Below are positions 6,952 to 61,900 of a DNA stretch of 64,000 nucleotides, piece after piece (within the stretch, counting starts at the first letter, position 1; every line of letters starts with the position of its first letter). The notes below the pieces were generated by a model. It made no database searches. It was given only the letters and a program-made list of their open reading frames with translations, and had not been told where the DNA came from. This DNA comes from Macrocystis pyrifera (Eukaryota > Sar > Phaeophyceae > Laminariales > Laminariaceae): contig JASSKH010000006.1 of the NCBI GenBank assembly GCA_031763025.1, forward strand, positions 12,397,979 to 12,461,978, read 5' to 3'. The position numbers and the translations under genes are program-made.

Positions 6952-8436
6952 CCAAAAATGCACCAGCTCTCGGATGTCGTCCTCCTCTGCGTGCAAGCAA
7001 GACCGGTACTTGACCGAGCTACCCATGTCTGCAACAATGCCTCCGCCGTCTACGCGCCCGGCCGGCCCCTCCGCCCCCCCATCCACCAACGCTGGGGAAG
7101 AGCCCGTCGGGTCTACAACACACCGGACCTGAGGGGAAAAAAAGGGCGGTACAAAAGAGGCGACGACGACATGGAACGGAGTGGGGGGGGGGGGGGGGGG
7201 GGGGGGGTGTGCTCATGTCAGAAGAGGCGGTGGAACGGGGGGAGGGAGGGGGATACTCATGCCATGCGTGGTCGTAGTCGTATGACCATAGACCCTCGCA
7301 TCCCTACAATACCGGGATGGAGCACGTTGGTGTTTCACCGACCAGGCAGCTATTGCTTGCTGGCACCAAGCGCGAAGCGAAACGTGAGGTGTCGAGCGAG
7401 TCGCAATGGAGGGTGAGCGGCATCCTAGCAAGAACCGTTTTGTGAGGTGGGGTTTCTTGCATACGAAGGGGGCGAGGGGGAGGGGGAGGGGGAGGGGGAG
7501 GGGGCACCGGTCGGTGAGCAAGGAACACCTTCGACTCGCGCCCATGCGAAACCGGACGTATATAGTGTTGTCGGAAAGAAAACAAAGACTGTAGGTCTGC
7601 GCGGAGGCCGTCGGGACATAACAAACAAACGAGGACGAGTCAAGTCTCTACGTCTGTGCAACGTGCACCCACCGAATAGAAAACGTCTGCTGTACGCCAC
7701 CACCCACCCACCCGCAACACGTGCCTTCGCCAAAATAAAAAAAACAGTCGTACGTATACAGGTGAAGCAGTCGACTTCCACCACCAAAGACAAACGCAGG
7801 ACGATATAAAACCATCACCACCCACGAAGCGATCGCTCTCGAAATAAGCATGGCACGTCCAACCTCCCCCCCCCCCCCCCCCCCCCCCCGTTCCGGCATT
7901 GTGGGGATGCTAGGGTCTATGTTCTTACGACCACGGCCATGCACAACATGAGTACCCCCCCCCCGCCCCCAGGACCATACAAATAATTGCCACCCGCGAA
8001 GCGATCGCCCTCGACACAATCATTGCACCCCCCCCCCCCCACCTGCCCCCCTCCGTGATCCCAGGGTTCTCACCTCCTGTCGCCTTCCCGTCTCCTTGCA
8101 ATAAGACAGCCCCAGTTCGCTCCTCTCGCACGAGACGCACGGCCCAGTCGGCGTGCACTCAGGTTCACTCTGCCTACCGTGCAGCGCCTCGTCATCATTG
8201 TCGTGCCAGTGCACCGTCAAGACCGCGTCCGAACCGTCATTAGTTTCGCCGCCGCCGCTGCCATCCACATCCCCGCCTTGCGATCCCCCCACACCGCCAG
8301 CGCCTTGGCTGGCGTTTTTTCGGCCATTGCTCGCGCCCCCCGTCCCCCGTCCCCCGCCAATGGAGGCCTCCTCACTTCTTTCGCTTATCGCCGTATCGCC
8401 ATGCCTACCGTCAGTGTCGTCGCGGCGCTCCAGCAC
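6952..8436 (-). CDS. JTB-like membrane protein, two candidate exons
   Basis: Two minus-strand exons are supported. The first runs from about 8436 to 8074 and is Gly/Ser-rich, then CVSCERSELGLSYCKETGRR, ending at GAG|gtgagaac. The second is 7091-6952 and encodes SSVKYRSCLHAEEDDIRELV, ending at TGG|gtgagt after the acceptor ctcttccccag. The order C-x2-C, C-x2-TG, then [FY][KR]SC with an acidic stretch is that of the JTB (jumping translocation breakpoint) family, small type-I membrane proteins with a cysteine-rich lumenal domain. Phases of these two exons do not match at the obvious acceptor, so a small exon or an internal acceptor (gcggag) is needed. The signal peptide exon upstream and the transmembrane exon downstream were not found. 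A possible downstream exon is listed at 6205-6447. A SINE1 copy lies between the two exons. Confidence 0.45.
7183..7450 (-). mobile_element. SINE1 copy b
   Basis: The minus-strand core matches copies a, c and d (read on +: CGTAGTCGTATGACCATAGA, CCCTCGCATCCCTACAAT). Its tail contains two C-rich stretches, each preceded by catgag-type sequence, ending in a run of 25 C (G at 7183-7207). It lies 95 bp upstream of the 7091 exon in sense orientation. Confidence 0.7.
7466..7505 (+). repeat. (GGGGGA)n simple repeat
   Basis: About six units of GGGGGA/GGGGGC next to SINE1 copy b. Confidence 0.85.
7861..7946 (+). mobile_element. SINE1 3' fragment preceded by poly(C)
   Basis: Only the last 55 bp of SINE1 (TTCCGGCATTGTGGGGATG to CACGGCCATGCACAACATG, then AGTAC and poly-C) remain, placed directly after another C run at 7866-7889. 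Confidence 0.55.
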
Positions 8437-8501
8437 ACTTTCTCTGGCACTCGGCCCATCCCCCCCCCCCCCCCGCCCGCCCCGCCCGTTAACACCACCT
8501 A

Positions 8502-8887: not shown

Positions 8888-8999
8888 GCTGGACGAGCGC
8901 ACAGCACCACATGCCGCAAAAACAAACAAGCAGGTGCAGGACGACGCCGCGGCGGCGCGGCGAGAGGGGGTCAGAAGGGCACCAGGGTATAAGGAGGGG

Positions 9000-9078
9000 G
9001 GGGGGCGTACTCATTCGATGCTTGCCTTAAGTCATTTGACCATTGACTACGCATCCCTTTCGAGACGGAGCAATGGGG
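9000..9078 (-). mobile_element. LINE 3'-tail fragment
   Basis: Only the last 70 bp of the LINE (TCTCGAAAGGGATGCG, then GGTCAAATGACTTAAGGC, then GAGTACG and poly-C on the minus strand) are present. Another G-run follows at 9086-9105. Confidence 0.6.
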
Positions 9079-9105
9079 GAGTGGCGGGGGGGGGGGGGGG
9101 GGGGG

Positions 9106-10822: not shown

Positions 10823-10965
10823 TATGGAAATGTTTACAAACCGAACACAATACATACGTACGAGGTGTACATATACACCATTTTGTTTAATTTTGTTTGT
10901 GTATTGTTTTTCATCTCATTCATCATCTTCGTCCTTCTTTCTCTTCCCTCCTGCTATATATTATT

Positions 10966-11074
10966 ATTACGGGGGACTATAGTAAACAGGACCTACGGTA
11001 CACACAAAACCCTATATATTTACCTATTACTACTAAAAATATTTGGTCCTATTAACTATGGTCCCCCCTAATAG
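10966..11074 (+). mobile_element. MITE-A copy 3
   Basis: Forward copy; the right TIR end is degraded (cccccctaa). Confidence 0.85.
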
Positions 11075-11371: not shown

Positions 11372-11590
11372 GTTACGGGGGACCATAGTTAATAATAGGA
11401 CCCACGGTACACACAAAAACCTATAGAATTTACCCATTTTTACTATTACGGGGGTCCATAGCTAATAGGACCTATGGTATACATAAAAGCCAATCTATTT
11501 ACCTATTTTTACTAACAAAATTTGGTCCCGTTAACTATGGACCCCCGTAATAACAATATTTGGTCCTATTTACTATGCCCCCCCGTAATG
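11372..11590 (+). mobile_element. MITE-A copy 4, interrupted by copy 5
   Basis: Forward copy split at tttttacta / taacaatattt by a second MITE-A. Rejoining across the insert restores the usual core with one TA, so the insert duplicated TA. Confidence 0.9.
11444..11550 (+). mobile_element. MITE-A copy 5, nested in copy 4
   Basis: Forward copy with complete TIRs. Its TIRs (tccatag/ctatgga) represent a slightly different subgroup from its host (accatag). Confidence 0.9.
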
Positions 11591-14261: not shown

Positions 14262-14550
14262 GGGGGGGTGTACTCGATAGGAGATGAACTCGATCTCATG
14301 CATGGCCGTAGCCGTATGACCATAGGCCCTCGCATCCCTACAATGCCGGGACGGGGCATGTCGGGTTTTCACCGACCAGGCAGACATTGCTTGCACCAAG
14401 CGCGAAGCGCCGTGGCGTGTTGGACGAGTCGCATGAAGGGTGAGCTGCATCCTATTAATACTAAGAACCGCTTGTGACGCGGACTTGCATATGGATGACA
14501 GCTTCAATGAGTTAATTTAATTTCCGGTGCAGCCACTTCCAGATATAGCA
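14262..14550 (-). mobile_element. SINE1 copy c
   Basis: Minus orientation; the poly-C end corresponds to G at 14262-14268. It shares the core CTCATGCATGGCCGTAGCCG, CATCCCTACAATGCCGGGAC and the distal AGCTTCAATGAGTTAATTTA block with copy d. Confidence 0.7.
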
Positions 14551-16139
14551 AAAAGGGCGCAGCAGGGGGGGGGGGGGGGTGACAACAAGGGGGGTGATAC
14601 CGCAAGCCACGATCATTGGCCCATTCTGACGCTTTCAGGCAGCTGCCAGGGGGGCGAGAACAAGGGGGGTGATGCCGCCTGATTCTTGTGTTCAACGTGA
14701 AACTCCTCGTCGGCAGGCGCTGCTGTCGGTGGCAGGGCTGGCGCTGGTGCGTTCAGGGAGCCTGGCGCTGGCGCTGCTGACGCTGCTGCCGCTGCCGGAG
14801 AGTTTGGCGCTGCTGCTGCTTCTGCCGGGGCTTGAGGCGCGACGAGCTGTGCCGGGACCGCTGGCGCAGGACTTGTTGCTGTGGCTGGCGTGGCACGAGT
14901 TGCCGTCGCTGGTTCATCTAGCGCTGCTGCCGGAGCTCGAGGCGCAGGTGTTGCAGGGGGTGGTTTGCGGATGGACGACGAACATAGCGATTGGTGTCCC
15001 GCTCATGGCTAGAGACGCGCCAGCAGACCGTGTCGGGGCAGCCTCAGCCGGCGTCTCAGGGGCCACAGCCCTGTTCTGGCCACGGAAAACAGGCCACCCG
15101 TGCGGGAGGGCTCCGCGCCTGTTCGATGTTGTCGTCGTTCTCCATCATGTGCGTCGCCGAAAAAAGTAACGGCACGATCAATACAGCACAGCAGTACTTT
15201 TGAGTGGGGCCCCCCGGGGATAATATTTTTCATGTTTGGAAGGCGTATCGGCCCAAGGGGGATGATCTCTAACGTAACCTGGTGATAACTTGCCTTTTTG
15301 CATCCCCGGGGGTGGTTTCCTGTGGGGTGGTATGATATCTAAGAGAAGACTCGACCTACGTACAGCCGCATCTTTCGGCCGCCCGGCGTTTTTATGGAAG
15401 AACGCCACCAAAACACGCGCCGGAGCCGCGTGACTGCCCCTGGCGACCTCGAACCCACCACAGGGTTGGGGTTCGGGTTCGGGTTCGGGTTAGGGTCAGG
15501 CTTGCGGCTGTTCTGGGTTCACTGCTGTGCAAGGTTGAAATTGACCACACACGTCCTGCATAAAGTTAGAGAAGGGTGATATCTCACCATACCTACCTAC
15601 TGCTGTAGTATATACTATTAAGGGTAGTGCGGCGATCGGGGTTTGGTGAAAATCTTTCATCCCATCATTTTTAGTAAACTTGTTTTGGTGTGGTCAAGCA
15701 ATGAATGTGTGTGCTTGAGCAGAATACAGGCTAGGAGTACGAGTCAGCGCAAAAGAAAAATAGTCATATATTACATATACATAGAGCCCAGCCGCACGAG
15801 CTTTTTTTCTTTCGAGTCATTTATCATGACATCTTTTTCATTTTCAGCATTTCAAGCAATTTCATCAGCGGTCGCAGGCCGTCGTCAGCTCCCATGGTTG
15901 ATGGTTCGTTTAGAGCAGTCAGTTGGTTGGCCCTTCTGCCTTTGCCGCCAGAAATTGTTATTTTGTTTCTCAATTATCTGGGCCATGACCCTAAAAAATC
16001 GCCCATAGGGCTGCACGGCTTGTTTTTCTTTGTTTCTTTCATTTTTTTTTTTTTTTTTCCCCCCATCTGTTACGGAATGCGCATGTCGTGCCTGTCGTGT
16101 CCAAACGATGACATAGCATTTTTATTTTTTTTTGATCAT
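14551..16139. other. Mostly unassigned, with one GC-rich low-complexity block
   Basis: 14690-15170 is GC-rich with GCGCTGG-type repeats. The plus frame is Leu/Ala-rich and the minus frames Ala/Pro/Ser-rich, so it could be an eroded exon on either strand. 15470-15500 is a short (TTCGGG)n run. Confidence 0.35.
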
Positions 16140-20206: not shown

Positions 20207-21961
20207 ATGGCGACGACCACACAGACGGCGGAAGGCCGGGGGGGGGCGGGGAAGGGGGAGCAGGATCCTAGCGCATGGCAGGCGCTCGGCGATGTGGCGA
20301 AGGTGCTCGACTCGAACTACCGGAAACACACGCCTGCAAGACTGAGGATGTTGGATATGTTCCTCGTCTTCGTTTTCTCTACCGGCGTTCTTCAGGTGGG
20401 GACAGGGTTTTTGGCTGGCGGTGTTTTCGCAATGCAAAACGGGTCTTCGTCCGGTAGCGAAAGTGTTTAGTGCTTGCAACATGTGTCCAATCTTGAGGTT
20501 TTTGGGCGGTGTTTTCGCGATGCAAAGCGGGGTCTTCGTCTGGTTCCCAAAGTGCTTTCGGGCGCATGCATGTGTCCAATCTTGAAGGATCAAGCTTCTG
20601 CGGTAGTGATATATTTATTTTATAAGTGCGGCAGGAGTTGCAGCAGGCGTTTGAGGAAAATTTGATACGTCCCCACGAGTTCGACGACATGAACCTTCCT
20701 GCAGGCGGCAGTCGCGGTTCCACTCAACCTGCAGTACGAGAGAAAACACACGTTTCATTCACTCAGCAAACCAAGCGGCTGGTACAGCAGTAGTTGACTG
20801 CTGTTATGACCCGCGTTCTCGTCGGCTCCACTCCTTTTTGTATGACTCGCGTACTCGTACGAGTATGTAGAACCTATCCGTTCACTATAAATGTTGACGG
20901 GGGACCTTTATAGTAAATAGGACCAAATATTGTTAGTAAAAATAGGTAAATATATAGGTTTTTATCTATACCATAGGTCCTATAAACAATGGACCCCTGT
21001 AACAGCAGTGCTAAACGATCCCCAGTAACGCGGATGTAGTTCTAACCCGTACCCTTTCATTGCTCGAACAACACTCCAACTCTGAATGTAAAAAGTTTTT
21101 GATCAAAACTCTACTGCAGTTTATTTAGTTGCATGTGTAAGGTAACAGATTGCTATTACGGGGGTCCATAGTTAACAGGACCTATGGTGTACATAAAAAC
21201 CCATATATATGCCTATTTTTACTCACAAAATTTGGTCCCGTTAACTATGGACCCCCGTAATAGGTGTCTACCACGTGTATTTTCCCATCGGGAACATGAA
21301 GTGTATGTCCCACGACCACCGAGCCGAGTAGCCAGCCGCCCGCTCGTCGGATGCGTGCTCCCGTATGAAGCTAAGACAGTTACTTCCATGCGTGCTAGAC
21401 CTTCGTCACGCTCCAGGCCGCCTCGTTTCTCCCAGCCGTCCTCATTGTTGGTGTTCAGTGTTATTTCGGGGGAACATAGAGGGGTTATCAGAACCAGATA
21501 CGGTGTGTAAGCATTGAGCGATGCCCATTGATAGTTTTTGGGTCAATCGTGGGTTCTAACCAAGATAGGCCTTCCGTGTTATGTTCTTTTGTATTACTGC
21601 GGGGGATTACAATCAGAACCAACTAAGGTGTGTAAACATGGGGGCATACCTGTTTTTGGGGGTAGAGGCAATTTCGCAGTGTTGGGGCCTGAAAATTCGT
21701 GACGTAGGCCAATCACACACACCAAAACCAACCAAATTTGTGACAAAATTCGTACGCTGGTTGGATGATGACTTGCTGAACCTAGCTTGTCAATTCCGCC
21801 GCCCATCGCAGCACGGCATAGCGCCTGCAGCAGAAGCACCTCACGGCAGATAGGAAGCTCTCGATGGAAGAAGCACATCTGACGACCGCGCAGCAAGCAA
21901 GCCGCACTATCGCTCGTGTGATGCCACCAGACAACCCCAAGACTCGAGACAGACACAGATC

Positions 21962-22010
<49 letters not shown>

Positions 22011-28400: not shown

Positions 28401-30520
28401 GGTGCAGTTGGGTGCAAACAGAACGACTTAATATGAGGACGACACACAAAAGACAACGAGGTTCACTTCATTCAGCGTTTCCGTTGCTCATAGTTTTCGA
28501 TCGAACTTTTGCGTCAGCAAGCGCTCTTAAGTACCATACCAAATACTGTATTCACTCTCCGCGCGGGCGGGCTATATACTTGGTTGCTCTTGCTACACAC
28601 CAGTACGTTTTATCTATACACCACTTTGGTTATGGTGGCGGTGGTTGGGGCGGGGGCGGGGGGGGACTCGTCCGAGCTCTGGAAGTACTTTCGTCTTGTC
28701 GAGAAGGATTTTACGTCGGCATTAGCAGTATTGGCGTGGGTTGATATTCCCCTGCAGCGTGGATAGCTAAGGTGCCTTATTATTTCTTGCTCAATATTCA
28801 ACATCTCACCCGAATCTTGACTTGGAAGAAGTTGGTTCGCGCTACCCGACCAACAACAGGCCTAAAACAAATATACTATTACGGGGGTCCATAGTTAATA
28901 GGACCTATGGTATACATAAAAATCTATATATTTACCTATTTTTACTAACAATATTTGGTCCTATTTACTATGGTCCCCCGTAATAGTCAAGGGTACACGG
29001 GAAAAAAAAAAAAAAAAAACGGCACTCCACTTTTTTTTTTAGTCCCAGACAGGGGAGCGGGGGTGTACGCGATAGGAGAGATGTGCTCGATCTCATGCAT
29101 GGCCGTAGTCGTATGACCATAGACCCTCGCATCCCTACAATGCCGGGACGGAGCATGTCGGGTTTTCACCGACCAGGCAGACATTGCTTGCACCACGCGC
29201 GAAGCGCCGTGAGGTGTCCGGCGAGTCGCATGAAGGGTGAGCTGCATCCTCTACTCAGAACCGCTTGTGAGGCTGACTTGCATATGGCTGACAGCTTCAA
29301 TGAGTTAATTTATTTTCCGGTTTACGTAGCCACTTCCAGAGACAGCAATGAGAGTACTATATAACTGCCTCTTGGGTGCCATACCATAAACACTATGTGA
29401 TACGTTCATTCCCACTTGTGTGGAGTACGTAAAGGTTGTTCCCCTGGCACAAATGATCTATCGCTCGAAAACCAGCTGTGACCGACCGCCAAAAAAAAAA
29501 AAAGAAGCGGTGCCCTGGTTGTCTAGCTCAAGTAGTGAGCGGCATGTTTTACTGTGTCGTTGCCAACCGACGCCAACCCAACCTTTATATAATATGGGGT
29601 ATACTAACATAAAGTAAACAAAAACTGAAGAAAGACATGGTTTTATATAATTTCCGCCAAAAATCCCAACCAGCTACCCCGTAGATCGTTCTCATTCAAT
29701 TCCGACATGGTGGCGAGTGTGGCTCTGTTATCTCTTTTTTTCGTGTGCTCTACTATTACGGGTGTCTATAGTTAATAGGACCTACGGTAGGCACAAAAAA
29801 CCTATATATTTACCTAATTATACTAACAATATTTGGTCCTATTTACTATCGTCCCCCGTAATAATAACATTAGTAGTATTAATAGTAAAGTACCATACTA
29901 ACCGGTATAAAAAATTACCTCAGAAGGCAAAAAAAAAATGCAACGCCTATATGCGGTAGGATAAGCCTGAATCAGAGACCATCCTCAAGGGGAGAAGAAG
30001 TATTTCGATATCCATTATCTGCTGTTGCTGTGCTGACACACTCGACTCACGAACTTGCGGTTGCTGTGCTCATGCGCTCGCCCGACCAAACTGCGGTACG
30101 TACCGGAATGTTGCTGTTGCTCGTACAGCTGTGTGTGCCCCCGCCGCGCCTCCCGCCGGCAATTTTTGCTGAAATTAGCGCGCACCCATTTCTTGCCGAA
30201 ATTTCCCCACAAACTGCTGTCTGTTGCTGTGCTGAGTTTCACTGCAACCAACCTCTCGCCGTCCGTTTGTTTTTTCGATTTTTTTGCTGATTGTTCCGGC
30301 CACGTCTTTGCCGATATTTTTTCCTCCGGGGGCTGTTTGGTTTTCTGCGTGGAATATATGCACGCACGCTCTTTTGAATAAAGTGTCGTTGAGAATGCAG
30401 GTGATGGAGGCGAGCGAGAACGGGGGCGTCGTTAGTGGCCGGTCGCTGGAGCGATGCTTTGCGGAGTACGTGGTGTGCAACATGGTGCTGTTCTTAGTGG
30501 TGATGAACTTCATGGGCTGA
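20207..30520 (+). CDS. DAD1: DAD1/OST2, oligosaccharyltransferase subunit (3 exons)
   Basis: Exons 20207-20395, 27841-27928 and 30384-30520 join in phase (63 codons; 88 nt ending phase 1; 137 nt ending TGA) to give 137 aa. Seen: exon 1 ends [20 protein letters not shown], exon 2 carries [20 protein letters not shown], and exon 3 ends [10 protein letters not shown]; these are the DAD1 signatures in the right order, with three hydrophobic segments. Known: DAD1/Ost2 is a small integral ER-membrane subunit of the oligosaccharyltransferase that transfers the glycan to Asn in nascent proteins. The protein is somewhat longer than the usual 113-119 aa because of a Gly/Thr-rich N-terminus. Donors are CAG|gtgggg and GCAG|gtataa; acceptors are ccgccgcag and ttgaataaag. 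Intron 1 is 7.4 kb and holds an opposite-strand gene, two MITE-A copies upstream of it and a third near its 3' part, most of family B and a CAG-rich array. Intron 2 is 2.5 kb with MITEs and SINEs. The start ATG is the first in frame and matches the family N-terminus. Confidence 0.96.
20407..20588 (+). repeat. 91-bp tandem duplication just inside DAD1 intron 1
   Basis: Two adjacent units (20407-20497, 20498-20588) share TTTTTGG, GCGGTGTTTTCGC, ATGCAAA and ATGTGTCCAATCTTGA. The first begins 12 bp after the exon 1 donor. Confidence 0.85.
20894..21003 (-). mobile_element. MITE-A copy 7, in DAD1 intron 1
   Basis: Reverse orientation (ggaccaaatattgttagt near the left end). The left TIR carries an insertion (gacctttatagt). 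Confidence 0.8.
21155..21263 (+). mobile_element. MITE-A copy 8, in DAD1 intron 1
   Basis: Forward copy of the same subgroup as nested copy 5 (tccatagttaacaggacc; ggtcccgttaactatgga). The TIRs are essentially perfect, suggesting recent movement. Confidence 0.88.
21458..21582 (+). mobile_element. Family B element, copy 1
   Basis: Short element with termini of the form TTACnGCGGGGG...TAATCAGAACC and GGTTCTGATTA...CCCCGTAAT and the internal block AGGTGTGTAAACAT. This copy is diverged (tatttcgggggaacatag; gggttctaacc). Confidence 0.55.
21593..22726 (+). mobile_element. Family B element, split or long copy
   Basis: An intact left end (TTACTGCGGGGGATTACAAT at 21594) and an intact right end (GTGGGTTCTGATTACTATGA... 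ending CCCCGTAAT at 22726) lie 1.1 kb apart, whereas other copies are about 100 bp. The interior holds a (CAG)16 run and no recognised gene. It is either a longer member or a short copy interrupted by other DNA. Confidence 0.5.
21962..22009 (+). repeat. (CAG)16 microsatellite
   Basis: A perfect trinucleotide run between the two ends of the split family B element. No supported coding frame. Confidence 0.95.
22785..23030 (-). mobile_element. SINE2 copy without head, in DAD1 intron 1
   Basis: It matches the body of the 16140-16455 copy over about 240 bp (for example CTTCTGGACAAGCCGTGGTC, TCGTCGATTTTCATCGAAT). It stops at the edge of the tRNA-like head. A T run of about 29 at 22746-22774 corresponds to its A-rich tail. 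Confidence 0.75.
23271..26176 (-). CDS. OTU-like cysteine peptidase gene, partial model, nested in DAD1 intron 1
   Basis: The clearest exon is about 23602-23271 (minus, stop TGA near 23271). It encodes [58 protein letters not shown] and HAMHYSTL. This is the C-terminal half of an OTU fold, including the helix before the conserved glycine and the catalytic-His strand. The catalytic Asp/Cys part is not seen. Upstream on the same strand, about 23745-23640 encodes a CYNC...FHFAC zinc-finger-like stretch, and about 25960-25796 encodes [11 protein letters not shown]; the latter ends at a good donor (GGTG|gtgagtg). A further exon may start with ATG at 26176, with a hydrophobic [17 protein letters not shown] start. 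It joins in phase to the 25960 exon through a very short intron ending ggtcaag. The link between zinc-finger and OTU parts is not resolved, because phases conflict; they may be separate genes. Known: OTU proteases remove ubiquitin. The array at 23880-25450 lies in the supposed intron. Confidence 0.55.
23880..25450. repeat. CAG-rich compound minisatellite, 300-460 bp units
   Basis: Four long units each repeat the order ACCAAAATATTTT, AAAACGA, GTACATACGAACATTCAGTG, gcggcagcattagcag, CAACGGATCGCCGCA, CATAGCAACGATATG. The GTACATACGAACA blocks start near 24049, 24509, 24811 and 25176. Within and after them are CAG/CAA runs, the longest at 25267-25297 and 25391-25424. Confidence 0.88.
26386..26432 (+). 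mobile_element. Family B right-end fragment
   Basis: Only the right half (GGTTTCAAGTCTATGTGGGT, TCTGATTACTA) survives, directly against MITE-A copy 9. Confidence 0.5.
26431..26538 (+). mobile_element. MITE-A copy 9, in DAD1 intron 1
   Basis: Diverged forward copy (ttccgggagaaaatag; tgcccccccgtg) abutting a family B right end. Confidence 0.7.
26556..26655 (+). mobile_element. Family B copy
   Basis: Near-complete (ATAGTAATCAGAACCAAACA, AGTGTGTAAACATGCGG, GTGGGTTCTGATTACTG). Confidence 0.65.
26674..26790 (+). mobile_element. Family B copy, complete
   Basis: Both ends are present (ATTACCGCGGGGGAATATAG; TATTCCCTCCCCGTAAT) with TIRs of about 30 bp. Best reference copy. Confidence 0.72.
26808..26906 (+). 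mobile_element. Family B copy
   Basis: Contains TGCGGGGGAATGTAGTGGTC, AGGTGTGTAAACATGGGGG and CATCGTGGGTTCTGATTA; the right terminus is lost. Confidence 0.65.
27189..27234 (+). mobile_element. Family B end fragments, back to back
   Basis: A right end (TTATGATATGCCTCCCGTAT) is followed at once by a left end (GTATTACTGCGGGGG), as if two copies were joined by deletion. Confidence 0.5.
27335..27495 (+). mobile_element. SINE2 fragment, in DAD1 intron 1
   Basis: Plus-orientation body fragment (TTCGATGAAAATCGACGAGC, GCGATAAAAATGAAGGCACG, TGACCACGGCATGTCCAG), diverged from the other copies. Confidence 0.6.
27652..27750 (+). mobile_element. Family B copy
   Basis: Contains TACTGCGGGGGATTCCAGCA, ATCAGAATACGGTG and CATCCTGGGTTCTGATTATG, 90 bp upstream of DAD1 exon 2. 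Confidence 0.6.
28009..28118 (-). mobile_element. MITE-A copy 10, in DAD1 intron 2
   Basis: Reverse copy with near-perfect TIRs, 80 bp downstream of the DAD1 exon 2 donor. Confidence 0.87.
28138..28330 (-). mobile_element. SINE2 fragment, in DAD1 intron 2
   Basis: Shares the ATTACTTTCCAACTCGACTC, GACCGTGGTCACCGGTG and CCCGGTACATGCC blocks with the other SINE2 copies. It immediately follows a MITE-A copy. Confidence 0.6.
28380..28455 (+). repeat. Family C dispersed repeat, copy 3
   Basis: Contains GACGGACACTGGGTGTACTG, AGAACGACTTAATATGAGGA and CGACACACAAAAG. Confidence 0.5.
28876..28985 (+). mobile_element. MITE-A copy 11, in DAD1 intron 2
   Basis: Forward copy with intact TIRs. Confidence 0.87.
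29035..29600 (-). mobile_element. SINE1 copy d (longest), in DAD1 intron 2
   Basis: Nearly full-length, antisense to DAD1. It is alignable with copy e over both the core and the 5' region that includes CCAGCTGTGACCGACCG and GTCTAGCTCAAGTA. The tail end is AGTACG/AC followed by C-rich sequence at 29050. Confidence 0.7.
29753..29864 (+). mobile_element. MITE-A copy 12, in DAD1 intron 2
   Basis: Forward copy; small changes in the left TIR (ttacgggtgtctatag). Confidence 0.83.
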
Positions 30521-32499: not shown

Positions 32500-34959
32500 G
32501 GGGGGGGGGGGGGCGTACTCATTTGTTGCTTGCCTTAGTCATTTGACCATTGACCACGCATCCCTTTCGAGACGGAGCACCGTTCCTACTCTTAATAGAG
32601 ACACCTCCAACGATTGGGCGCTCATTTCGTTGTTTCCATATATTACATAGAAACTTTTTGCTAATCCTATCCCCTTCCTGGCTGGCCGCCTGTGGCTACC
32701 ATCTATCTCCTAGGATAGCGATCGTTTTTTTGCTGCTATTCAGTGTATCAAACTCCTCCATGTCACATTCGTCTATTTCCTTCACCTCCTCTCCTAGCAC
32801 ATCCCGTTCCTCCTGGTATATTTCACATTCTCATACTATGTGAGTTCTACTCTGTATTGTTTTGCCACACGGGCACATCTGTACATCTAATTCCTCCTCC
32901 CGGGTACTGGTATACCTCTTTCTTCTTTCTGGCAGGTCCAGGTCCCCTACACGAAAGCGCAGTTTCAGCGTTTTCGCGAAGTCCATTGGGCCATGCAAAT
33001 ACGTTTTCATTCCTATTCCTTCCCTCCTTCCCTCAATCCCCGTATATCTATAAGTGTTTTTCCGATTCCACCTTGTTTCTTAGCGCTAGCCTTTCCCTTC
33101 TTTCTATCCTTTCTTCTACTTCTGCCTGCCTTGTATCTCCCAAACTTCCCGGCGGACATCATCTCTTCTTGGTTTCCCCCTATATCCTTCCATACTTTCT
33201 CAACTACGTCATCCCACCTTATTCCAGCTCGCCCTTTTGTTATTTTTTTCCCATACAGCTCTATCAACTAAGGCGGGCAACCTCTTTTTTAGCATGTTCC
33301 TTGCTTCATATTGCCAGTTCAACTTTATCATGTCTCTATTTGTCTTGAGTGGGTGCATTCCCAGTTCTTCTTAATGTATTACTAGTGGTACTTGAGCATC
33401 TTGGGGTTTTTTTTAGCTGCTGTCATTTTGTACTGTTTCCAACTGTTTTACGGGTTTCGCGTTCCCTTCCCATACTTCTCCTGCATATTCTAGCTTTGGT
33501 ACTATCACATTCATCAGGATACATCTCTTAATCCTAGTGTCAAGGTGCGAGTCTGTTAAGATCGCATCCATCTTGCCTACTTGTGCCTTACCCTTTCCTA
33601 TTACTTTTGCTATGTGTGTATCCCAAGAGCAGTATTTTGAGATCTATACGCCAAGGTATGTATACTGGTCTACGATCGGCAATTCATCTTCTCCCCACTT
33701 CCAACTGAAATTTACCGGGTTTACCATATCTTCGTTACTATTACTGCGCAATTCTTGACGTTCGCCGTCACCCTCCATTTGCTGGTGTATTCTAGGGCCT
33801 TCTCTATTTGTTTCTGCAATCCTTTGGGTGTTTCTGGTATCCCCACGAAGCCATCCGCAAACATCAATCCCGACACCGTATCTTCCCCTACCGTGACTCC
33901 CCGCCTTGCTGCCTTGACAGCTACTATCAGGTCGTCAATATGTGTATCTTGAATAGGTCAGGTGACAATATACATCCCTGTACAACTCCATGTAAAATAT
34001 CAACATATGTCGATATTTCCCCTTCCAGCATCAATGCACTTCTCGCATATTCCGTCATCTTTTTCATCATTCTCCACATCTTTCCTCTGATTCCTATTTC
34101 CCACAGTTTTTTCCACAATCCATTTCTCCATACTGTGTCGTAGGCTTTTGGCACATCTAAAAATAGACAGTACATTATTAGCCGCGCGTCTTTCCTACCT
34201 CGAATAATCCTACCTAAGGTGTACACATGGTCTACGCAGCTACGGTTTGGCCTAAACCCTGCTTGCCCTTCGCTTATTTTGTTTTCCTTCTCCATCATCG
34301 TTCCCATTCTATCGTTCAAGATCTTACAAAATGTGCTGCCTACTGTGCTCAGTAGCGTTATCCCTCTATAGTTCCCCGGGTCAGCCTTGTCTCCTTTCTT
34401 GAATAAGTTTACTACTACTCCTTCTCTCCACCTCCTAGGTGCGTACTCGTTTTGCCATATCCAGTTATACAACATAACCATCATGGTAAGCATTCCTTCT
34501 CCCCAGTACTTCATAAATTCATTCACTATTTGGTCTGCCCCTGCTGTCTTTATATTCTTAAGTTTAGCTACACGCTTTTTTATTTCCTCCCTTGTGAACT
34601 CTCTCCGTAACCCTCCCGAACCACTGTCCTCCCTTTCGGGTTATCTACGTTCGCCTCAGCCCACGCGTTGATTTCCTTTTCGAATTCTGCGTCGAACGTT
34701 TCGTTGGCTGTGGTTGTTCTTAGCTGACGGCAATGCTTTACAAGTATTTCCCTTTTCCCCGTCGAACTACTAACCATTTACCGTTCTGTGCTCTTAGAAG
34801 AGGTATTCCCGTGTCTGCCTCTCCTGCTTGTTTGCCAAGTGTCCCTTTTGTCCCTACCCACATCTGCTTCATCCCGCCCTCAAAGCCTTCATTCGTTTTG
34901 TTTACTACATCTTTCCATATCCCTTTCTTCTTCTCTACCATCTCTTTTATTTTCTTTCT
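32500..34959 (-). mobile_element. LINE retrotransposon, 5'-truncated and inactive
   Basis: The minus strand encodes a non-LTR reverse transcriptase: 34526-33927 carries ADPGNYRGITLLSTVGSTF, EGQAGFRPNRSCVDHV, FLDVPKAYDTVW and GVVQGCILSP. After a frame break, the catalytic box reads SGLMFADGF, with Gly in place of the second Asp. A further break precedes the C-terminal CPCG..H..EC zinc motif near 32850, itself cut by a TGA. Upstream frames (34941-34580) are the start of the ORF, also shifted. The 3' end is ATGAGTACG followed by about 14 C (on +, G at 32500-32513). Imperfect 12-bp target duplications acaatagaagag/acaatagacgag lie at 32489-32500 and 34960-34971. Confidence 0.9.
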
Positions 34960-36189: not shown

Positions 36190-39100
36190 GAACAGAGGCC
36201 CCCTTCTCTCGAACCGTACTCCACAGACAACCCGTAGTCTTCCACAACAAGACCGAGCCCGGACTGCTTCAGATACTCTGCACGTACGTCCCCAAACAAC
36301 GAAACGGAGAACGCGTCAAGCATACAACAACAGCCACGAGCACAACCGATTTGAGTACCGCGCGCCGCACTTTCCTGGGGACACCTCATCAACGCTGACG
36401 TGAACTTACATGCCTCTCGCTGGCACTTCGTTCGGATAAAACAACCAACCAAATAACTAGTGCGCGCATATACGAATGCGACTGTAAGAGAGTAATCGGT
36501 CCAGGTGACTGTTTATAGTAACCATGTAAGACAAACCACGTGAGCTCACCTTCAACGTGGCTTCCGGGATGGCAGTGCGGGGTGGGCAAAGACACGATGA
36601 CGGTCCCCGGGGGGTGCAACACCTCCCTGCAGATGTGGTACAGAAGATTGTTCAGGCGGTCTGAGGAGGGAGTGTTGTCCTGAAGTAAGATGGTCCTGGT
36701 TGCTGTGGCTGAAGGAGATGAAGATCAACATGGCACGCCTCTGGACCTTGATGTTCGAAATGTCTTTCTCAGGGGAGTCCGTACTCAGCGGCATGACCGT
36801 TCGTTGGGGTTAACCACAGATATTTTCCAAAAAACTACTCAGAAAAAAGTGGGCTTTTCGCTGTGATCGTTTCGTGCCCAATCTGTCGCTATGACAGCGT
36901 TCAAACGTATGTTTTTATTACTGCTGCTTTGATGTCTAATGTTCTCTGTCTCGCAGTTCATGACCACAGGGCTTGTGGCTCTCCAGTAGGAGGAGACAAA
37001 ATCAGCACTGGCATCAGAAGTACTGTAGGTCGAAGGGGACACATTCCTGATTGAACTAAAAGGGAAGACAAACAAGCTCAACATCAATCCGCAAGTGTTG
37101 TTGTTGTCACTACACGAGTTTTCGTGAGTACTTCACGTTCGGGCGTTTGGTGTTACCTTGCAGTCTCGGGCGCGCCACAAATAGCACACGGAACAAAGGT
37201 GTCGCCGTCATCGTTCTCGCTGCCGTCCTCGTCGTCGCCTTCGTCGTCGTCGTCGCCCACGTCGTCGCCCTTGCCTTTGCCCTTGCCGCCGCCCTTACCC
37301 TTCTTAGCACGAGGGGGTGTAGGGGGGACTACTCGAAGCTTGAGAGCGTTGACGGTGTTCTCGGCATCCTCACACCGCTTGCCATATGCCTCTAGAAACG
37401 GTCTCAGGCTGGCGTCACTTTGAAGTCCCTGACAAACGCAGGAAGACACCATGATAAACGGAACGGCAACGAAAGGGGTTCAGGCGTTAGAGCGAAGAAC
37501 AGAGACGTGGGCCTTAATACGTGTTCGTCCACGAAGAGAGTTAAGGTGTTGGTGGTTTGAATATCCCGCATGCCAAAGATCATCGTGGCGAATATTTCCT
37601 TAGAAAACCGACGCGACCGCGTTCGAACGTGACACAGGTGGGGCGCGGACTCACTGAACGGAGTTGAACAAGTGGCTTCGCTCGAACCGTTTCGGCGTCA
37701 CCATCGTCGAGTTCTGGTGCATGCGCCTGAATCCCTCTCTGCATTTTTTGTAGCTCAATCTCCACGCGCTGCTGGTGAGGCTTGATGTAGTTCGCGTAGT
37801 GGCCAGGTTCCCCGAACGCGAATTTGTTGATGACGCTGGTGCGGCGGGTAATGGTTCAGGTGATTTTGTCAGAAGGTTGAGTGGTTCGCAAGGAGGCGTT
37901 CAGGGAGACGCATGCGCAGACGAGAATGGGGGAGGGGGGGCAGGTTGTTCTCGTTTTTTTTGGCATGGCCGTAATCGTATGGCTACAGACCCTCCTATCG
38001 CTACAATGCCGGGACAGAGCACGTCTGCTTTTCACCGAGCAGGCAGACAAATGCTTGCACCAACCGCGAAGCACCGTGAGGTGTTCGGCTATTCGCATGA
38101 AGTATAAACTGCATCCTACCAAGAGGCGCTTGCGAGGGGGACTTGCTTAAGGATGGCAGCGTTACCGAGTTGCTTGTTTTTTCGGCGTGGCAACTTCCAG
38201 AGACAGCAATGAGAGTACTATATAATGGGCTCGTGGGCGCGTTATCGAAGTAAAGGTTCTGCACCCCACACACACATGATCTAACTCAACCGCCAGCTGT
38301 GACCGACCGTCAAAACAAATAAAACGGCACCCTGTCGGTCTAGCTCAAGTACTTAACGGCATATTATACGGTGTCGTTGTACACCAGCGCCAACCCCACC
38401 TATGTTTACATATGTAGGGGGGGGGGTACGCCCCAGAATCTAGCAGGGTGTTTTCTTAAAAAATGGGGAAGGGCAAAAAGAACGAGTGACCCTCTGCCTG
38501 AACGGCTGGAAAATTCGCGATACATACTGGACAAGCCATCAAGTACACCAACACACATACATATATACATACATACATACATACATACATACATACATAC
38601 ATACATACATACATACATACATACATACATACATACATACATACATACATACATACATACATACATACATACATACATACATACATACATACATACATAC
38701 ATACATACATACATACATACATACATACATACATACATACATACATACATACATACATACATACATACATACATACATACATACATACATACATACATAC
38801 ATACATACATACATACATACATACATACATACATACATACATACATACATACATACATACATACATACATACATACATACATACATACATACATACATAC
38901 ATACATACATACATACATACATACATACATACATACATACATACATACATACATACATACATACATACATACATACATACATACATACATACATACATAC
39001 ATACATACATACATACATACATACATACATACATACATACATACATACATACATACATACATACATACATACATACATACATACATACATACATACACAT

Positions 39101-41852: not shown

Positions 41853-41963
41853 CTATTACGGGGGGCCATAGTAAATAGGACCAAATATTGATAGTAAAAT
41901 TATGGAAATATATGGGTGTTTGTCTGCACCGTAGGTCCTGTTAACTATGGTCCCCCGTAATAA
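41853..41963 (-). mobile_element. MITE-A copy 14
   Basis: Reverse copy with intact TIRs, about 600 bp beyond the 5'-most exon of the unrecognised gene (41246). Confidence 0.87.
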
Positions 41964-45974: not shown

Positions 45975-48900
45975 CTAGCTGGCACCTTTTGTGTCATCAC
46001 CACCATCACCACCACCAACCCCGGCGATAGAATCACTAGGTCGGGGCGCGGGTGGACCAAACCTCTGACCGGGAGTAACTCCAATGGCGGTCATTTTTTG
46101 CGCGTACATTTCCTTCGTCCTAAACTCTGCCCCAAGGGTCCATCCCAACGGCCCAGCAGCGACAACTCTCCGCATTTTGTACGGCACGCCTCGCTGGTTG
46201 CCGTACACGAACCCCCCCTCCCTGTCGAAGCCGCGGTCGTTCACCCACAAGTGGTCTGGCCAGACCTTGAGGTCGTCCTTGACGAGGATCTCCAGCCCGT
46301 CGACGTTCTGCGACTTGATCCACGTCCCGTTGTCATCTTCCCCCATCAGCCCCAAGAAAGGCACCCCCACCCCCTCTTCCGCTGGCGCTGCTCCCGAGGA
46401 GGCTGCTGCGTTACCGCCATCCAACCCACCAGCAAGTCCACCATCAGCATCGCCTTTACTGCCACTGGTGGTTGCACTGCTGCCTCGGCTCCAGTATACT
46501 TCGCAGCCGATGATGCGCTCGACAACGCTATCCTCATGCTCATCGCATTCTGTTCTAGTTGCCCCATCGTTGCTGCGCTGGGCGCTCTCCTTTTCCTGTC
46601 CGAGCTGCTGCTGTTGTTGCTGCTGCTGCGGGGGGGCATCGTTACCCCAGTCGAACGAGGTGAGGTCGTACCCTTGAGCCCGAAGGCGGCTTTCGACGGC
46701 AGGGAAAAGCCTCCATAACCTCATCGTGGCGCCGCCCCTCGCCCCCTGTGCGTTCCACACGCACGCGGACGGGAACACCAACGGGAGCGCGCGGGGGGGG
46801 GGGGGGGGGGTACTCGACATTATGCATGACCACAGTAGTACTACAATACCCTAGGTGGTACTCAACGAGAAGATTAACGTGTGAGTGATTGCGTGGGCGG
46901 CCCATCGTTGCTGTGCGTGTCCTCCACGTCAAACCGTTAGTTTTTACCCATCGGCATTCAGCACGTCCAGTGTCCGTGCCGATTCTTGAACCCTAGAGAG
47001 ATACAAGTTCTGTGGTCACAAGTCCGAGCGAGACAGAGAAAATACATGAAAATAAATACGATCGCGAATGCAGCAAGGAGTTTTGTTTTGCGCGACGACG
47101 ACGACGACGACGACACGAGGAAAAATCAAATCTGGCTATTTTTCGGCGCACACAAGAATCCGTCGTCTGCTTCTTGCTTGGCTTGCTCGTGACGACGGAC
47201 AGAGCAAGAACGGCGAGCGGTCGCCACTCGTGTATACTCCGTGCACGTTTTGCAAGATGCAGGAGACCACGTAGTGAGCGAACGTGGAAGGCGGTCGAGG
47301 GAGTGAATCGATCCAAGAGCAGCCGATCGTATTTTCTTCGTCTTCGTCGGGATGCTCGACGCCGGCAGAAGGAGGAGGAGGTGTATCGTTCGCTCTCCCC
47401 CCCCCCCCCTCCGTGACAATACGGCTACGGCCATGCATGACATGAGTACCCCCCCCCCCGAAATGTTGGAGGTTGTCTCTGATAGGAGTAGGAGCGATGT
47501 TCCGTCTCGAAAGGATGCGTGGTCAATGGTCAAATGACTAAGGTAAGCAGCAAATAGCAAATGGGTAGACGAACTGAGATGTACCCACTTGAGACACGGT
47601 GAGGCGATAAAGTTGAAATGGCAATATAAAGTAAGGAACATGCCAAAAAAAGAGGTTGCCAGCCATAGCTGATAAAGTTGTAGGGAGAAAGTAACTAGAG
47701 GGCGAGCTGGAATAAGGTGGGATAGCGTAGTCGAGGAAGAATGGAAGGATATAGGAGGAAACAAAGAAAGATGCTGTCCACATAGAGAAGTTCGGGGGGT
47801 ACTAGACAGCAGTAAAATAAAAGATAGAAAAAAAGGGGAAAGGCTAGAGCCAAGAAATAAGGTGAACCGGGAGAAACATTTAGAGATTTACGGGGGGCTA
47901 AGAGAAGGAATAGGAACGGAATCGTATTTACACGGCCCAATGAACTTGGGGAAAACGCTGAAACTGCGAGTTCGTAAAAGGGACCTGGATCTGCCAGAAA
48001 GAAGAAAGAGGTATACCAGTGACCAGAAGGAGGAGGAAGTAGGTGCACAGATGTGCCTTTATGGCAAAGCAGTTGAGAGTAAAACTCGCAGAGTGGGAGA
48101 ATGTAAAATATGCAAGGAGGAACGAGATGTGTTAGAGGAAATGAGGAAAACAGACGAATGTGACATGGAGAATTTTGGTGCACTGGATAGTAGTGAGCGA
48201 ACGATCGCTATCCTAGGAGAGAGATGGTGGCCACAGGCGGCGAAACAGGAAAAGGATGGCAGCGCCAATTAGAAATTCGCTCCAACTCTCACCGAGCATG
48301 CATGGAAGCTGTAGAGGCGATACCGAAACACTACGTTGGCGTCGCCGTTGAAGTAGTACTTAGCCGCTACCACGACCAGGGGACGGTCAGCCGCTGTCCC
48401 CTCCTCCTCTCCCCCGTCACCCTCGCCGCCACTGATACCACCCTGCCCGAAAGCGACCTGAGGAGGAACTTGATTAGCGTCCAACACTTTTAAGCTGCAG
48501 TGGATGTGCTCGTGCCCTCCGCCTGGGCCTGGGGGCATGCCGGCCTTGCGATCCTCGATCACCTTGCACGGATTAAAAAAAGTAAATGGTCAAAAAAAGG
48601 TAAATATGGTCACCCTTCGCACAAGTGAAGGGTACACATAGTCACCTTTCGCCCAAAAGCTGGTATACTTCGTCACCCTTCACTCGAAAACAGGTATACC
48701 TGGTCACCCTTTGACCAAAAACAGGTACAACCTGGTCGCGTGCCCAAAAGAAAATACCTGGTACACCTCATCACGCCCAAAAACAGGCAATGTACGCCTA
48801 CCGCATATAACAGCATAACAGACCCCATCTTGCACGTACCAACGGGGTGGCCATTATTCTCAAATCCTAAACGACCTCTCGAGCTGTCACCCGGGGTACG

Positions 48901-50335: not shown

Positions 50336-50386
<51 letters not shown>

Positions 50387-52735: not shown

Positions 52736-52754
52736 AGCTCAGACAAGGAGGGCC

Positions 52755-58900: not shown

Positions 58901-61900
58901 AGGGGGGGTAAACATAGCGAGGAGGGGGGGGTCATACATGGAGCTGGAGGGTCATATCTTCAAGGGGGGATTAATATGTTTAAAGGGTTTCATGTGTGAA
59001 AACGAGAGTCCATATTTTGGGGAAGCTCATGAATCGCTGTATTCTTTTCGGCTCCTTTTTTTCGGCAATGGTACCCCCCCCCACCCCCCCCCCCCCCATG
59101 TTAATTTCATTCGCCACTGTTGCCTACGTGCAAGAATGTGCGCACAAGCTGCCTGAGTCCGCCTCACAAACGGTTTTTTGGTAGGATGCAGCTCGTCGTC
59201 CACGCGACTAACCCAACACCTCCCGTTTCGTTTCGCTCTTGGTGCAAGCAATCAATATCTGCTGCTTGGTCGGTGAAAACCCGACGCGCTCCGTCCCGGC
59301 ATTGTGGGGATGCGAGGGTATATGGCCATACGACTACGGTCAGGCATGATACCGAGTACATGGCGTTACGACCACGGCCATGCATGATAATGAGTACACC
59401 CCCCTCCCCCCGCCATCCCTATACCTAACCGCCTCTTTCGCGTTTCAACCAGGGTTATCACGGGCCAGAACATGCTCGTGACGGACTACACAAACAGCCC
59501 CCCCCCGCCCCCCCTCCCTATATCTAAACGCCTCCTTCGCATTTCGACCAGGATTATCACGGGCCAGAATAAATTCGTGACGGACTACACGAACGGCCCC
59601 CTCCCCGCCATCCCTCTACCTAACCGCCTCTTTTCGCGTTTCTGCCAGGGTTATCACGGGCCAGAACATGTTTGTGACGGACTACGTGAACAAGGGGGAC
59701 TGGAACAGCAAGGTTGGTCTAGGTACTGACGTTCCGAGCAAGATTATCAGGCTGTCCCTCGCGGCCTACGGAGGAGAAATCATATGCCAGAGGGGTGCGT
59801 TTCTGGCAGGGAGCCACACCATCGACATACAGGTGATGTATGTACATCCTTCATGAGGTCATACGAAACCCGAGCCTAACTGTCGTACGCCCGATGGAAG
59901 AACCATACACACGCGGCTTGTAAAGACGAGTTTCGAGGAGTTTCGAGGAAAAATCACAGCTGAAGTTTTTTTTTTTTTTTTAATGTTTTTTTGTTTCTAT
60001 TACTCCTCGTTTTGCGACTATTTATTTACACGTCGGGCAGATGGCATGCCTTTTCTTATCGATCTCCTTCTCCGAGAGATCAGATCTGTGCTGATCGACT
60101 TTTGGGACGGATCAGATCTCTACTGATCGATATTCTCAGGCAGGCCAGATCTCTACAGACAGATCGATCTGTTCGGGCAGATCAGATCTCTACAGACAGA
60201 TCGATCTGTCCGCACATATCAGATTTAATTAAGCTGATCGATTTTTTCGGACAGATCAGATCTCTACAGATCGATATGCTTAGACAGATCAGATATCTAC
60301 AGACAGATCGATCTGTTTGGACAGTTTATCAGATCTGTGCCAATCGATTTGTTCGGGCAGATCAGATCCCTATAGATAAACCTGTTTGAACATATCAGAT
60401 CTGTGCTGATCGATTTGTTAGGACGTATTACTGTAGATGTGTGCATACGTATCTGTTCTAACAGATCAGATCCCTGCAGATCGGTCTGCTCCATCTTTTT
60501 GACAAATATTGTCATAGGATCGGTGCATCCTTGATTGGTTGACCAAAATGGTTGACTGGTTGATTTGGTTGGTTGGTTGGTTGGTTGATTGTTCGGTTCT
60601 TTGTTCGGCTGATTGGTTGACTGATTGAATGATTCGCACCTCTGACAGATGATGATCTAGATGATCGATGATCTAGTTCCGCATCTTCCGTTGCGAAAGG
60701 TTGTGGAGGATCTGCATAGTACAGATCCCACCCGACTAAATGAGCGATATCATACCATATTGATATTGGATCTGCCCTGAAGTATCTAGATGATTGGTTG
60801 AGTGATTGGTTTCGTTGGTTGATTGATTGATTGATTGATTGATTGATCGATTCGTTGGTTTGATTGCTTGGTTGGTTAGCGATTGATCGCTTGTTTGATT
60901 GAAATTTTAACTCACCCTCACCATGAAGTTAACCTTTTCTCGCTCGCCCGCATTTTCGACTCCCATATCCTCCGGGCGCAGACGGAGTTCACAAAGATGC
61001 TGGCCGGGTTCTTCGGGGGCGAGGGGTTTGTACTCCAGCGCCTCACGGGCAAGGGCGACGCGTTTGTCAAGGCCAGGTAACACCGCGCCCCACCCCCACC
61101 CCCACCCCCACCGCCACCACGCAACAAAAAACGAAAGCAAACCCACACCGCACCGCACCCACCGCACCGCACCCACCGCACCGCACCTCGCCACATCTCA
61201 CCACACCGCACTAAAGTGTACAGCTCTGACCTCATATATTAGGAGCGTCTAGAGGCTACTCTGAAGACGAAGCGGTGCTTATATTTCCGGTCAGAGTGGT
61301 GTGTAACTCGGAAGGTAACACATCACCCCCTGGGCCCTTTGTTTTAGCCGAGTTTGATCAAAACCATGCCTTCAAGGGGCACGCACACGCAACGAAAATG
61401 GTACGGCAGCTTGGGAAACGATCTCAAACGAGGCATTTCCATATAAAGAGAGGCATGCATCGCTCGGCGTTGGCACTCTCTCTCTCCCCGAGGGGGGTGT
61501 GTTAGTTTATCACCCTAGTGTGGTAGTGTTGTAGTGTTATTCATGCACACACAACGAAAATGAATTGGCAGCTTGGGGAACGATCTCATCGAGGTGTCTC
61601 CATATATAGAGAGGCATGCATCGCTCGGCGTTGGCACTCTCCCCTAGGGTGTGTTATACTATCACCCTAGTGTGTTATTGTACTATAATGTTATATGGTA
61701 TATGTGATAAGATAACACACCACACCACACCCCATGTCCTACTACGTACGAGGAGTTCGGTGGAGTTTCGCTCTTTGGGCAAGAGCTGCTGTCGTTCCCT
61801 TTCGCCGCTCGAGCGGTTTCAGTTTCTTGCCTATCCTTCTATAGCGACCAAATAAATCAACATCAGGTACTGTGTGTACTACGGGCTTACCTTCAGCGGT

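Follow-up and report, generated by a model that had tools for sequence, protein, structure and literature searches.

RTEX-N1_Ec32 of Ectocarpus is a non-autonomous, LINE-dependent element of about 600 bp with thousands of copies; according to the available part of its description, no other single family in that brown alga is as abundant (PMC12477816). Its 3' end is common with autonomous LINEs, the origin of its 5' part is given there as unknown and no Pol III promoter has been proven (PMC12477816). In this study, we analysed a 64,000-nt stretch of Macrocystis pyrifera DNA (the window), sampled loci (L numbers) and the 537-Mb, 223-contig genome assembly, in which the element SINE1, about 500 bp in length, has copies in the thousands. 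As far as that description goes, RTEX-N1_Ec32 is the nearest published relative of SINE1. Unlike SINE1, it is presented in the available part of the account with no mention of poly(C) tails, C-tract targets or splice-site proximity (PMC12477816). Both elements are short, have thousands of copies and carry a LINE-type 3' end, a likeness at the level of description.

Non-LTR retrotransposons that target microsatellites were reportedly treated by Kojima and Fujiwara in 2004. Examples named in the available part of one account are Togen, which targets (TG)n, and some HERO families (PMC4640811). SINE1 is like these described elements in its target-specific insertion into one simple repeat. Unlike them, it targets a C homopolymer and is itself non-autonomous, with a likely LINE partner, and its targets cluster at intron ends. 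Within the searches made, we found no literature on C-tract targeting with a consequence for splice sites, and none on brown-algal polypyrimidine tracts at splice sites or on SINEs with a poly(C) tail.

In antisense Alu exonisation, the poly-T tail acts as a polypyrimidine tract and the acceptor is located inside the antisense element. SINE1 is similar in that a retroelement tail adjoins an acceptor; however, the acceptors beside SINE1 lie in host sequence beyond the element, and donors too have copies next to them. Introners are short mobile elements tied to splice sites. SINE1 is also a short mobile element linked with splice sites, but its copies are found nested inside other repeats and far from sampled exons as well. 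Since the splice sites are outside the nine SINE1 copies near sampled exons, the idea that SINE1 is an introner, an element that provides a new intron with its splice sites, was rejected. SINE1 is a variation on the known simple-repeat-targeting and LINE-dependent elements.

Selection usually purges transposons from the neighbourhood of exons. Mammalian transposons are described, in the part of the source available, as greatly under-represented near exons (PMC3088655). In contrast, copies of the SINE1 family are over-represented, and oriented one way, where a splice site is within about 110 nt. The cause appears to be the target C-tract, which is already in introns and outlasts the insertion. 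In the intron-rich brown algae, a retroelement could in this way load introns beside splice sites at little cost, a route that is open to testing. Tempting as it is, a role in splicing should not be deduced from the mere position of a tail next to a splice site.

SINE1 and its LINE partner

The 5' starts of SINE1 copies are scattered and their 3' ends are concentrated, that is, a constant 3' end is combined with variable 5' truncation. The window contains a decayed LINE (Table 1), in which RVT_1 was the sole Pfam domain found at E <= 0.1 in three minus-strand frames of the 32.5-37.2 kb region, and a restriction-like or APE endonuclease was not among the matches. Its 3' UTR ends with AAATGAGTACG-(C)14. 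SINE1 3' ends match the last ~70 bp of this LINE at about 78-82%, and both end with GAGTAC-(C)n; direct alignment of the LINE with one window copy of SINE1 was modest (score 26 vs a shuffle maximum of 23). By the 3' end common with an RT-encoding LINE and by the variable 5' truncation, SINE1 can be classed as a putative LINE-dependent non-autonomous element, and this LINE is its likely mobilising partner.

With respect to the strict definition of a SINE, no Pol III-derived head (tRNA-, 5S- or 7SL-like) was found in SINE1. An Rfam search of one full-length copy (window 29040-29640) was negative even at a cut-off of E = 1, and no tRNA genes were found in the window. An internal T-run is present in full-length copies. 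Because both flanks are C-runs, a target-site duplication is not separable from the tract itself.

SINE1 copies and candidate splice sites in the window

The first-pass annotation had reported four SINE1 tails with their orientations, and all of them are present (Table 1). It had assigned an acceptor to each tail. The AG at 37836 was confirmed together with its tail; of the other three, that at 7092 is ambiguous, that at 59450 is a decoy produced by duplication, and that at 46746 lacks support. The exon after AG 37836 is an open frame only and gave no Pfam match. At 7092, the C-run is as reported, but a second AG ending at 7129 (TTTTTTTCCCCTCAG, exon from 7128), which is in the same frame and 54 nt from the SINE1 tail, has a better pyrimidine stretch. 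The minus-strand gene at 7092/7129 gave no Pfam match, with all three minus-strand frames of 2.5-7.2 kb covered, and has no homology support. The 5' flank of the SINE1 copy facing these acceptors is a (CCCCCT)n tract.

The tail assigned to 46746 is real, and the ORF downstream of it encodes a CpeT/CpcT protein (PF06206, E=2.7e-6). The acceptor at 46746, however, is unsupported, because its AG lacks an evident pyrimidine tract apart from the SINE1 tail and a search for another CpeT exon at E <= 0.1 on the minus strand of 46.8-50.4 kb was negative. For the acceptor placed at 59450, an AG is indeed present, ending at 59452, but it belongs to the first unit of a tandem triplication (Table 1) and is not in the AIM24 frame (PF01987, E=7.8e-11); only the third acceptor (AG 59648, exon from 59649) leads into that frame. 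A further copy at 7888-7970 (+) had been left out of the list of tails near splice sites. Opposite its tail, at 8073 on the minus strand, is a possible donor (GGAG/GTGAGA), proposed from sequence only.

Table 1. SINE1 copies, LINE sequences and candidate acceptors in the window
Feature	Position	Strand	Remarks
SINE1 copy	341..844	+	followed by LINE 3' end and long C-run (about 922-967)
Two candidate acceptors, minus-strand gene	7092..7130	-	AG ends 7129 and 7092, one common reading frame
SINE1 copy, 5'-truncated	7181..7465	-	C-run tail 7183-7207; faces acceptor 7129 or 7092
SINE1 copy, 5'-truncated, flanked by two C-tracts	7888..7970	+	antisense to minus-strand gene
SINE1 copy	14266..14551	-	C-runs at both ends
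SINE1 copy, full-length	29061..29610	-	5' flank with only four consecutive C
Decayed LINE with reverse-transcriptase domain	32503..34700	-	RVT_1 E=7.9e-18; 5' end not located
SINE1 copy, near full-length	37926..38425	-	C-run at 5' end, C-rich tail ~37928, acceptor AG 37836
SINE1 3'-end fragment, diverged	46781..46870	-	C18 tail 46793-46810; upstream of CpeT ORF
Piece of 3' end of LINE 32503..34700	47465..47559	+	adjoins SINE1 3'-end fragment at about 47419-47459
SINE1 copy, 3' end partly duplicated	59131..59411	+	tail 59398-59411
Tandem triplication of C-run, acceptor and exon start	59399..59693	+	AGs 59452, 59551, 59648

Placement around exons and the target tract

Exons of one protein family were sampled: 63 loci out of 150 WD40 matches listed, composed of 23 of the 30 loci of a first set and 40 added loci; a few of the 63 overlap at the edges. 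Before the count, L056-L060 were removed as copies of the L055 gene, and L043 and L053 because each is a second match in a locus already included. A score served to call the splice sites, with three set by hand (L064, L087 and L105). Within 110 nt of a splice site there were nine tail-facing SINE1 copies and no head-facing copy. Random placement within the same loci, conditional on the surviving copies, gave an expectation of 2.1 tail-facing copies (p=1e-4). The earlier claim of non-random placement near splice sites is thus supported in the sampled WD40 loci. Purely automatic splice-site calls again gave nine and zero, and without splice-site calling 10 tail-facing and 2 head-facing copies were found within 300 nt of the protein match. 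At 111-250 nt from splice sites, the counts were one and two, respectively.

The nine copies are composed of four sense copies before acceptors and five antisense copies after donors. Their bodies are 3-103 nt from the splice sites, which are all outside the copies. At donors the tail reads as a G-run, and the claim that placement is specific to acceptors was therefore not borne out. The placement rule is that the tail faces the exon, not that the tail is a polypyrimidine tract. Genome-wide, an antisense donor motif occurred about 15-75 nt beyond the SINE1 end 32 times at 8300 anchors, compared with 10 times at 315-375 nt and 16 times for a permuted motif near the end (p=0.0005 and 0.015). An acceptor motif occurred near the tail 76 and 62 times (overlapping bins) vs 39 times far from it, but this test is weak and confounded, because the C-rich tail itself supplies pyrimidines.

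A run of at least six C was found 5-35 nt upstream of 1978 of 2569 reverse-strand full-length SINE1 5' ends genome-wide (77%), as compared with 5% of random 53-nt windows of the sampled sequences, these windows being the control used for the genome-wide figure. In the sampled junction set (87 initial copies minus 10 poly-T false hits, leaving 77), 48 copies had such a C-run in the 5' flank, while equivalent runs of G, A and T were found at 0, 1 and 2 copies. It was present at 40/66 truncated and 8/11 full-length sampled copies. The examined 5' flank lacked it at 23% of full-length copies genome-wide and at 29/77 sampled copies; among the nine near-exon copies, six had a 5'-end C-run and three did not (L052, L078 and L105). 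Two empty sites, which are other copies of dispersed host repeats and not alleles, both carry a C7 tract. That of the L028 copy is TTGCAACCCCCCCTCTACCC (elsewhere in L028, and in L025), and a five-C version of it occurs in the window; that of the L018 copy is CTTCTCCCCCCCGGTACG (window, L022 and L008). By its insertions in one kind of simple repeat, C-tracts, SINE1 can be regarded as a probable simple-repeat-targeting element.

Independently of SINE1, acceptors are preceded by C-runs and donors are followed by G-runs at the intron ends. In the WD40 loci, 47 near-exon C-tracts (within 150 nt) face the exon and five face away, and in the 40 loci without detected SINE1 the counts are 33 and 5 within 250 nt of the match.

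Explanations for the tail-facing placement

We favour, with a probability of roughly 0.78, the explanation that SINE1 goes into pre-existing C-tracts by the LINE machinery and that the asymmetric intron ends yield the tail-facing copies. SINE1 would be mobilised by a LINE with the common 3' end ...GAGTAC-(C)n. The LINE protein may nick the G-strand, where the C-ended RNA would anneal. Insertion into an existing tract, with the C-strand along the sense direction of the element, would usually leave C-tract on both sides, and most copies do have a C-tract at either end. Because C (or G) runs at kelp intron ends are the targets, SINE1 tails would face exons on both sides: just before acceptors if the copy is sense, just after donors if it is antisense. 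Much of the tail beside a splice site would then be target tract and not a splice-making tract brought by SINE1, and retention of the tract beside the splice site may make the insertion tolerable. A role in splicing is not needed to account for the placement of the tails.

Conversely, the element might have made the asymmetry, if the runs of C and G at intron ends stem from old SINE/LINE insertions of which, after decay of the body, only the tail is left. Of the 47 near-exon tracts facing the exon, 9 do retain a SINE/LINE 3' end that can be recognised, and in L092 a run of 72 C follows a SINE/LINE end. However, no such end could be recognised on 38 of the 47 (short-motif match below 70%), occupancy by SINE1/LINE 3' ends far from exons is similar (21/149; Fisher p=0.49, low power), and the two empty sites were C-tracts before insertion. 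We consider this origin of the runs unlikely. Doubtful to a like degree is a more elaborate proposal building on tract insertion, in which kelp introns pair a G-run after the donor with a C-run before the acceptor (or, outward-facing, across exons), LINE and SINE1 have evolved to use these tracts as safe harbours, and the inverted tail pairs that they multiply have effects on how introns are defined, on exon skipping or on circular RNA.

The first-pass annotation had proposed that the poly(C) tail is a ready-made polypyrimidine tract. The tail could also provide branch-site context, and insertions before acceptors would then be retained by selection on splicing. The four sites on which the proposal was based are all sense, and in L055, L087 and the window tail 59398-59411 the C-run stops about 33-46 nt short of the AG, the sequence from there toward the AG being still rich in C. 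Nevertheless, since antisense copies are equally common, and equally close, on the donor side, the proposal is not supported and was rejected as the main cause. Some acceptors have a nearer pyrimidine stretch of their own (window 7129 and L078), and near-exon occupancy is not clearly above that elsewhere. We regard it as very unlikely that splicing selection placed these tails.

It is just as improbable that SINE1 inserts at random and selection purges the copies with the 5' part toward the exon, a form of the selection against insertions in other positions that the first-pass annotation had alternatively suggested: the absence of head-facing copies within 110 nt agrees with it, as does the orientation bias of under-represented mammalian elements near exons in the available part of that survey (PMC3088655), but the excess of tail-facing copies over random would require stronger purging deep in introns than beside splice sites, the C-runs show the same asymmetry in loci without detected SINE1, and purging is not needed because occupancy is alike near and far, at low power, and SINE1 enters pre-existing C-tracts. 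Apart from SINE1, LINE 3' ends are also tail-facing where the exon is no more than 200 nt away (L048, L064 and L092), and a LINE end in L062 is head-facing at 255 nt.

C-tracts as the probable target of SINE1 insertion

SINE1, a short mobile element ending in a C-run tail, inserts into C-tracts. On the reverse strand genome-wide, a run of at least six C lies 5-35 nt upstream of the full-length SINE1 5' end in 1978 of 2569 cases (77%; only C-runs were scored); the forward-strand count (13,448) was left out because overlapping starts inflate it. By comparison, random 53-nt windows of the examined sequences have such a run in 5% of cases. Among examined copies, the 5' flank holds C≥6 in 48/77 and G≥6 in 0/77, and truncated copies are similar (C≥6 in 40/66). 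Two insertions (loci L028 and L018) have empty counterparts where the host repeat occurs elsewhere, and both of these are C7 tracts. C-runs as long as 24 to 72 bases adjoin SINE1 or LINE 3' ends at window positions 7866-7889 and about 922-967 and at locus L092, which suggests tract growth after insertion.

Genome-wide counts refer to the assembly that contains the window, 223 contigs totalling 537,376,219 bases. For giant kelp (Macrocystis pyrifera) the published genome comprises 537 Mb in 35 scaffolds and 188 contigs, the largest of 26 Mb, and 50.37% GC (PMC10498591); the window has 49.7%. The words SINE and intron are absent from that paper's main text. The 3'-end 22-mer of SINE1, CATACGACYACGGCCATGCATG, occurs 11,400 times (5671 + 5729), and its reversed-sequence control 0 times. 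The copies listed terminate in ...GATANNGAGTACA or a variant of it, followed by a C-rich or C-run tail. Copies start at scattered 5' positions, and about a dozen in the sequences examined have a common full-length start about 500 bp upstream.

The window contains a decayed LINE whose 3' UTR terminates in AAATGAGTACG-(C)14. Over its last ~70 bp, SINE1 3' ends match it at about 78-82%, and one direct pairwise alignment of the two elements was weaker than these matches. Truncated ends of this LINE are also a common repeat, with a tail identical in kind. A tRNA search of the window found none, and an Rfam search with one full-length SINE1 copy found no relative. Since no such relative turned up and its 3' end is in common with an RVT_1-bearing LINE, SINE1 is best called a LINE-dependent non-autonomous element rather than a strictly defined SINE. 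RTEX-N1_Ec32 of Ectocarpus is likewise such an element, of ~600 bp and >6000 copies, and its 3' end is conserved in RTE-X LINEs as well (PMC12477816).

C flanks most copies on both sides, 5' truncation is variable, the 3' end is shared with a LINE that bears a reverse transcriptase, and at the empty sites the tract came first. On this basis, the enzyme of this LINE would open the G-strand of a C-tract, and the C-ended RNA would then prime there. Where the tract persists beside a splice site, the insertion may be tolerable. A Pfam search of the decayed LINE copy (32.5-37.2 kb, minus strand) found no endonuclease.

Placement of SINE1 beside splice sites

Exons were sampled by WD40 protein matches (at least 150 matches): 23 of 30 loci after removal of duplicates and 40 added loci, giving 63 loci with 29 SINE1 copies. 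Nine copies lie no more than 110 nt from a splice site, and all nine direct their tail toward the exon, whereas 2.1 tail-facing copies are expected if placement in the same loci is random (p = 1e-4, 20,000 draws). At 111-250 nt there were 1 tail-facing and 2 head-facing copies, and beyond 250 nt 11 and 6. Fully automatic splice-site calls again gave 9 versus 0 near sites (L064 enters and L087 leaves), and distance to the protein match, with no splice-site calling, gave 10 versus 2 within 300 nt. LINE 3' ends within 200 nt of exons are likewise tail-facing (L048, L064, L092); that in L062 is head-facing at 255 nt. The first-pass annotation had proposed that the tail could serve as a ready-made polypyrimidine tract before acceptors. 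Non-random placement of tails holds in the WD40 sample, but its restriction to acceptors does not, because five of the nine copies are antisense after donors.

Genome-wide motif counts agree with this placement, with limits. With 8300 anchors, the antisense donor motif occurs 32 times at about 15-75 nt beyond the SINE1 end versus 10 times at 315-375 nt (p = 0.0005), and a permuted motif 16 times in the near bin (p = 0.015). The acceptor motif occurs 76 times at 20-80 nt and 62 times in the overlapping 55-115 nt bin versus 39 times far away, near counts that the C-rich tail inflates.

Intron ends provide C-tracts oriented as the SINE1 target. In WD40 loci, 47 runs within 150 nt are either C≥6 preceding an acceptor or G≥6 following a donor, and 5 have the opposite arrangement; in 40 loci without detected SINE1 the asymmetry was 33 versus 5, counted up to 250 nt from the match. 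Six of the nine near-exon copies have a 5' C-run (not those in L052, L078 and L105). Tracts bear a SINE1 or LINE end in 9/47 cases near exons and 21/149 far from them (p = 0.49). Because SINE1 inserts into C-tracts, intron-end tracts are so oriented and occupancy is similar near and far, tract supply can account for placement at splice sites.

Microsatellite-targeting non-LTR elements are known, such as Togen in (TG)n and some HERO (PMC4640811), and near mammalian exons TEs are greatly under-represented (PMC3088655). In the literature searched, we met no precedent for a C-homopolymer target whose supply across the genome places a retroelement by splice sites with its tail to the exon on both sides.

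One WD40 gene is repeated over small contigs (L055-L060 on C22, C49, C116, C154, C188 and C55; also C77 and C117), as either unresolved duplicates or real amplification; SINE1 precedes its acceptor in 6/6 of the loci L055-L060.

Sites and repeats in the window

Four sense SINE1 tails had been placed before acceptors at 7092, 37836, 46746 and 59450, and the sequence bears out their positions and orientation. The acceptors fared less evenly. Besides 7092 there is a same-frame candidate, 7129, 54 nt from the tail and with a better pyrimidine stretch. The exon at 37.8 kb is only an open frame, with no Pfam match. The ORF at 46.7 kb is CpeT/CpcT, but its acceptor found no support. At 59.4 kb the acceptor occurs in three tandem copies, of which AG 59452 is the first. 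It lies off the AIM24 frame, which is entered only from the third acceptor, 59648; splicing at either of the first two would cause a frame shift.

A further SINE1 copy, missing from the earlier list, directs its tail toward a possible minus-strand donor. Provided that both splice sites are correct, 7130-8073 would be an intron with a SINE1 tail facing each of its exons. One exon in L064 has a sense SINE1 upstream and an antisense LINE 3' end downstream. Both are inverted-repeat layouts that, from their arrangement, could loop the intron or the exon.

Coordinates of features in the window and near-exon SINE1 copies in WD40 loci
Feature	Position or loci	Strand	Remark
SINE1 copy	7888-7970	plus	possible donor 8073
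Decayed LINE	34700-32503	minus	RVT_1, E=7.9e-18
AIM24 C-run, acceptor and exon start, tandem triplication	59399-59693		steps 99 and 97 bp
MITE-like repeat, ~110-120 bp (ATAGTAAATAGGACC...)	4670-4782, 10961-11073, 11440-11552, 21150-21262, 28873-28985, 28005-28120, 41850-41963	both orientations	
SINE1 before acceptors, ≤110 nt	L055, L073, L078, L087	sense	n=4
SINE1 after donors, ≤110 nt	L050, L052, L086, L093, L105	antisense	n=5

Brown algae are not known to have phycobilisomes; the CpeT/CpcT-family match spans 45978-46726. Near the 38-kb SINE1 copy, ~1 kb of ACATACAT-type repeat (38544-39600) is open in several frames. The MITE-like family was grouped at 10 places in the window, some only 61-64% alike.
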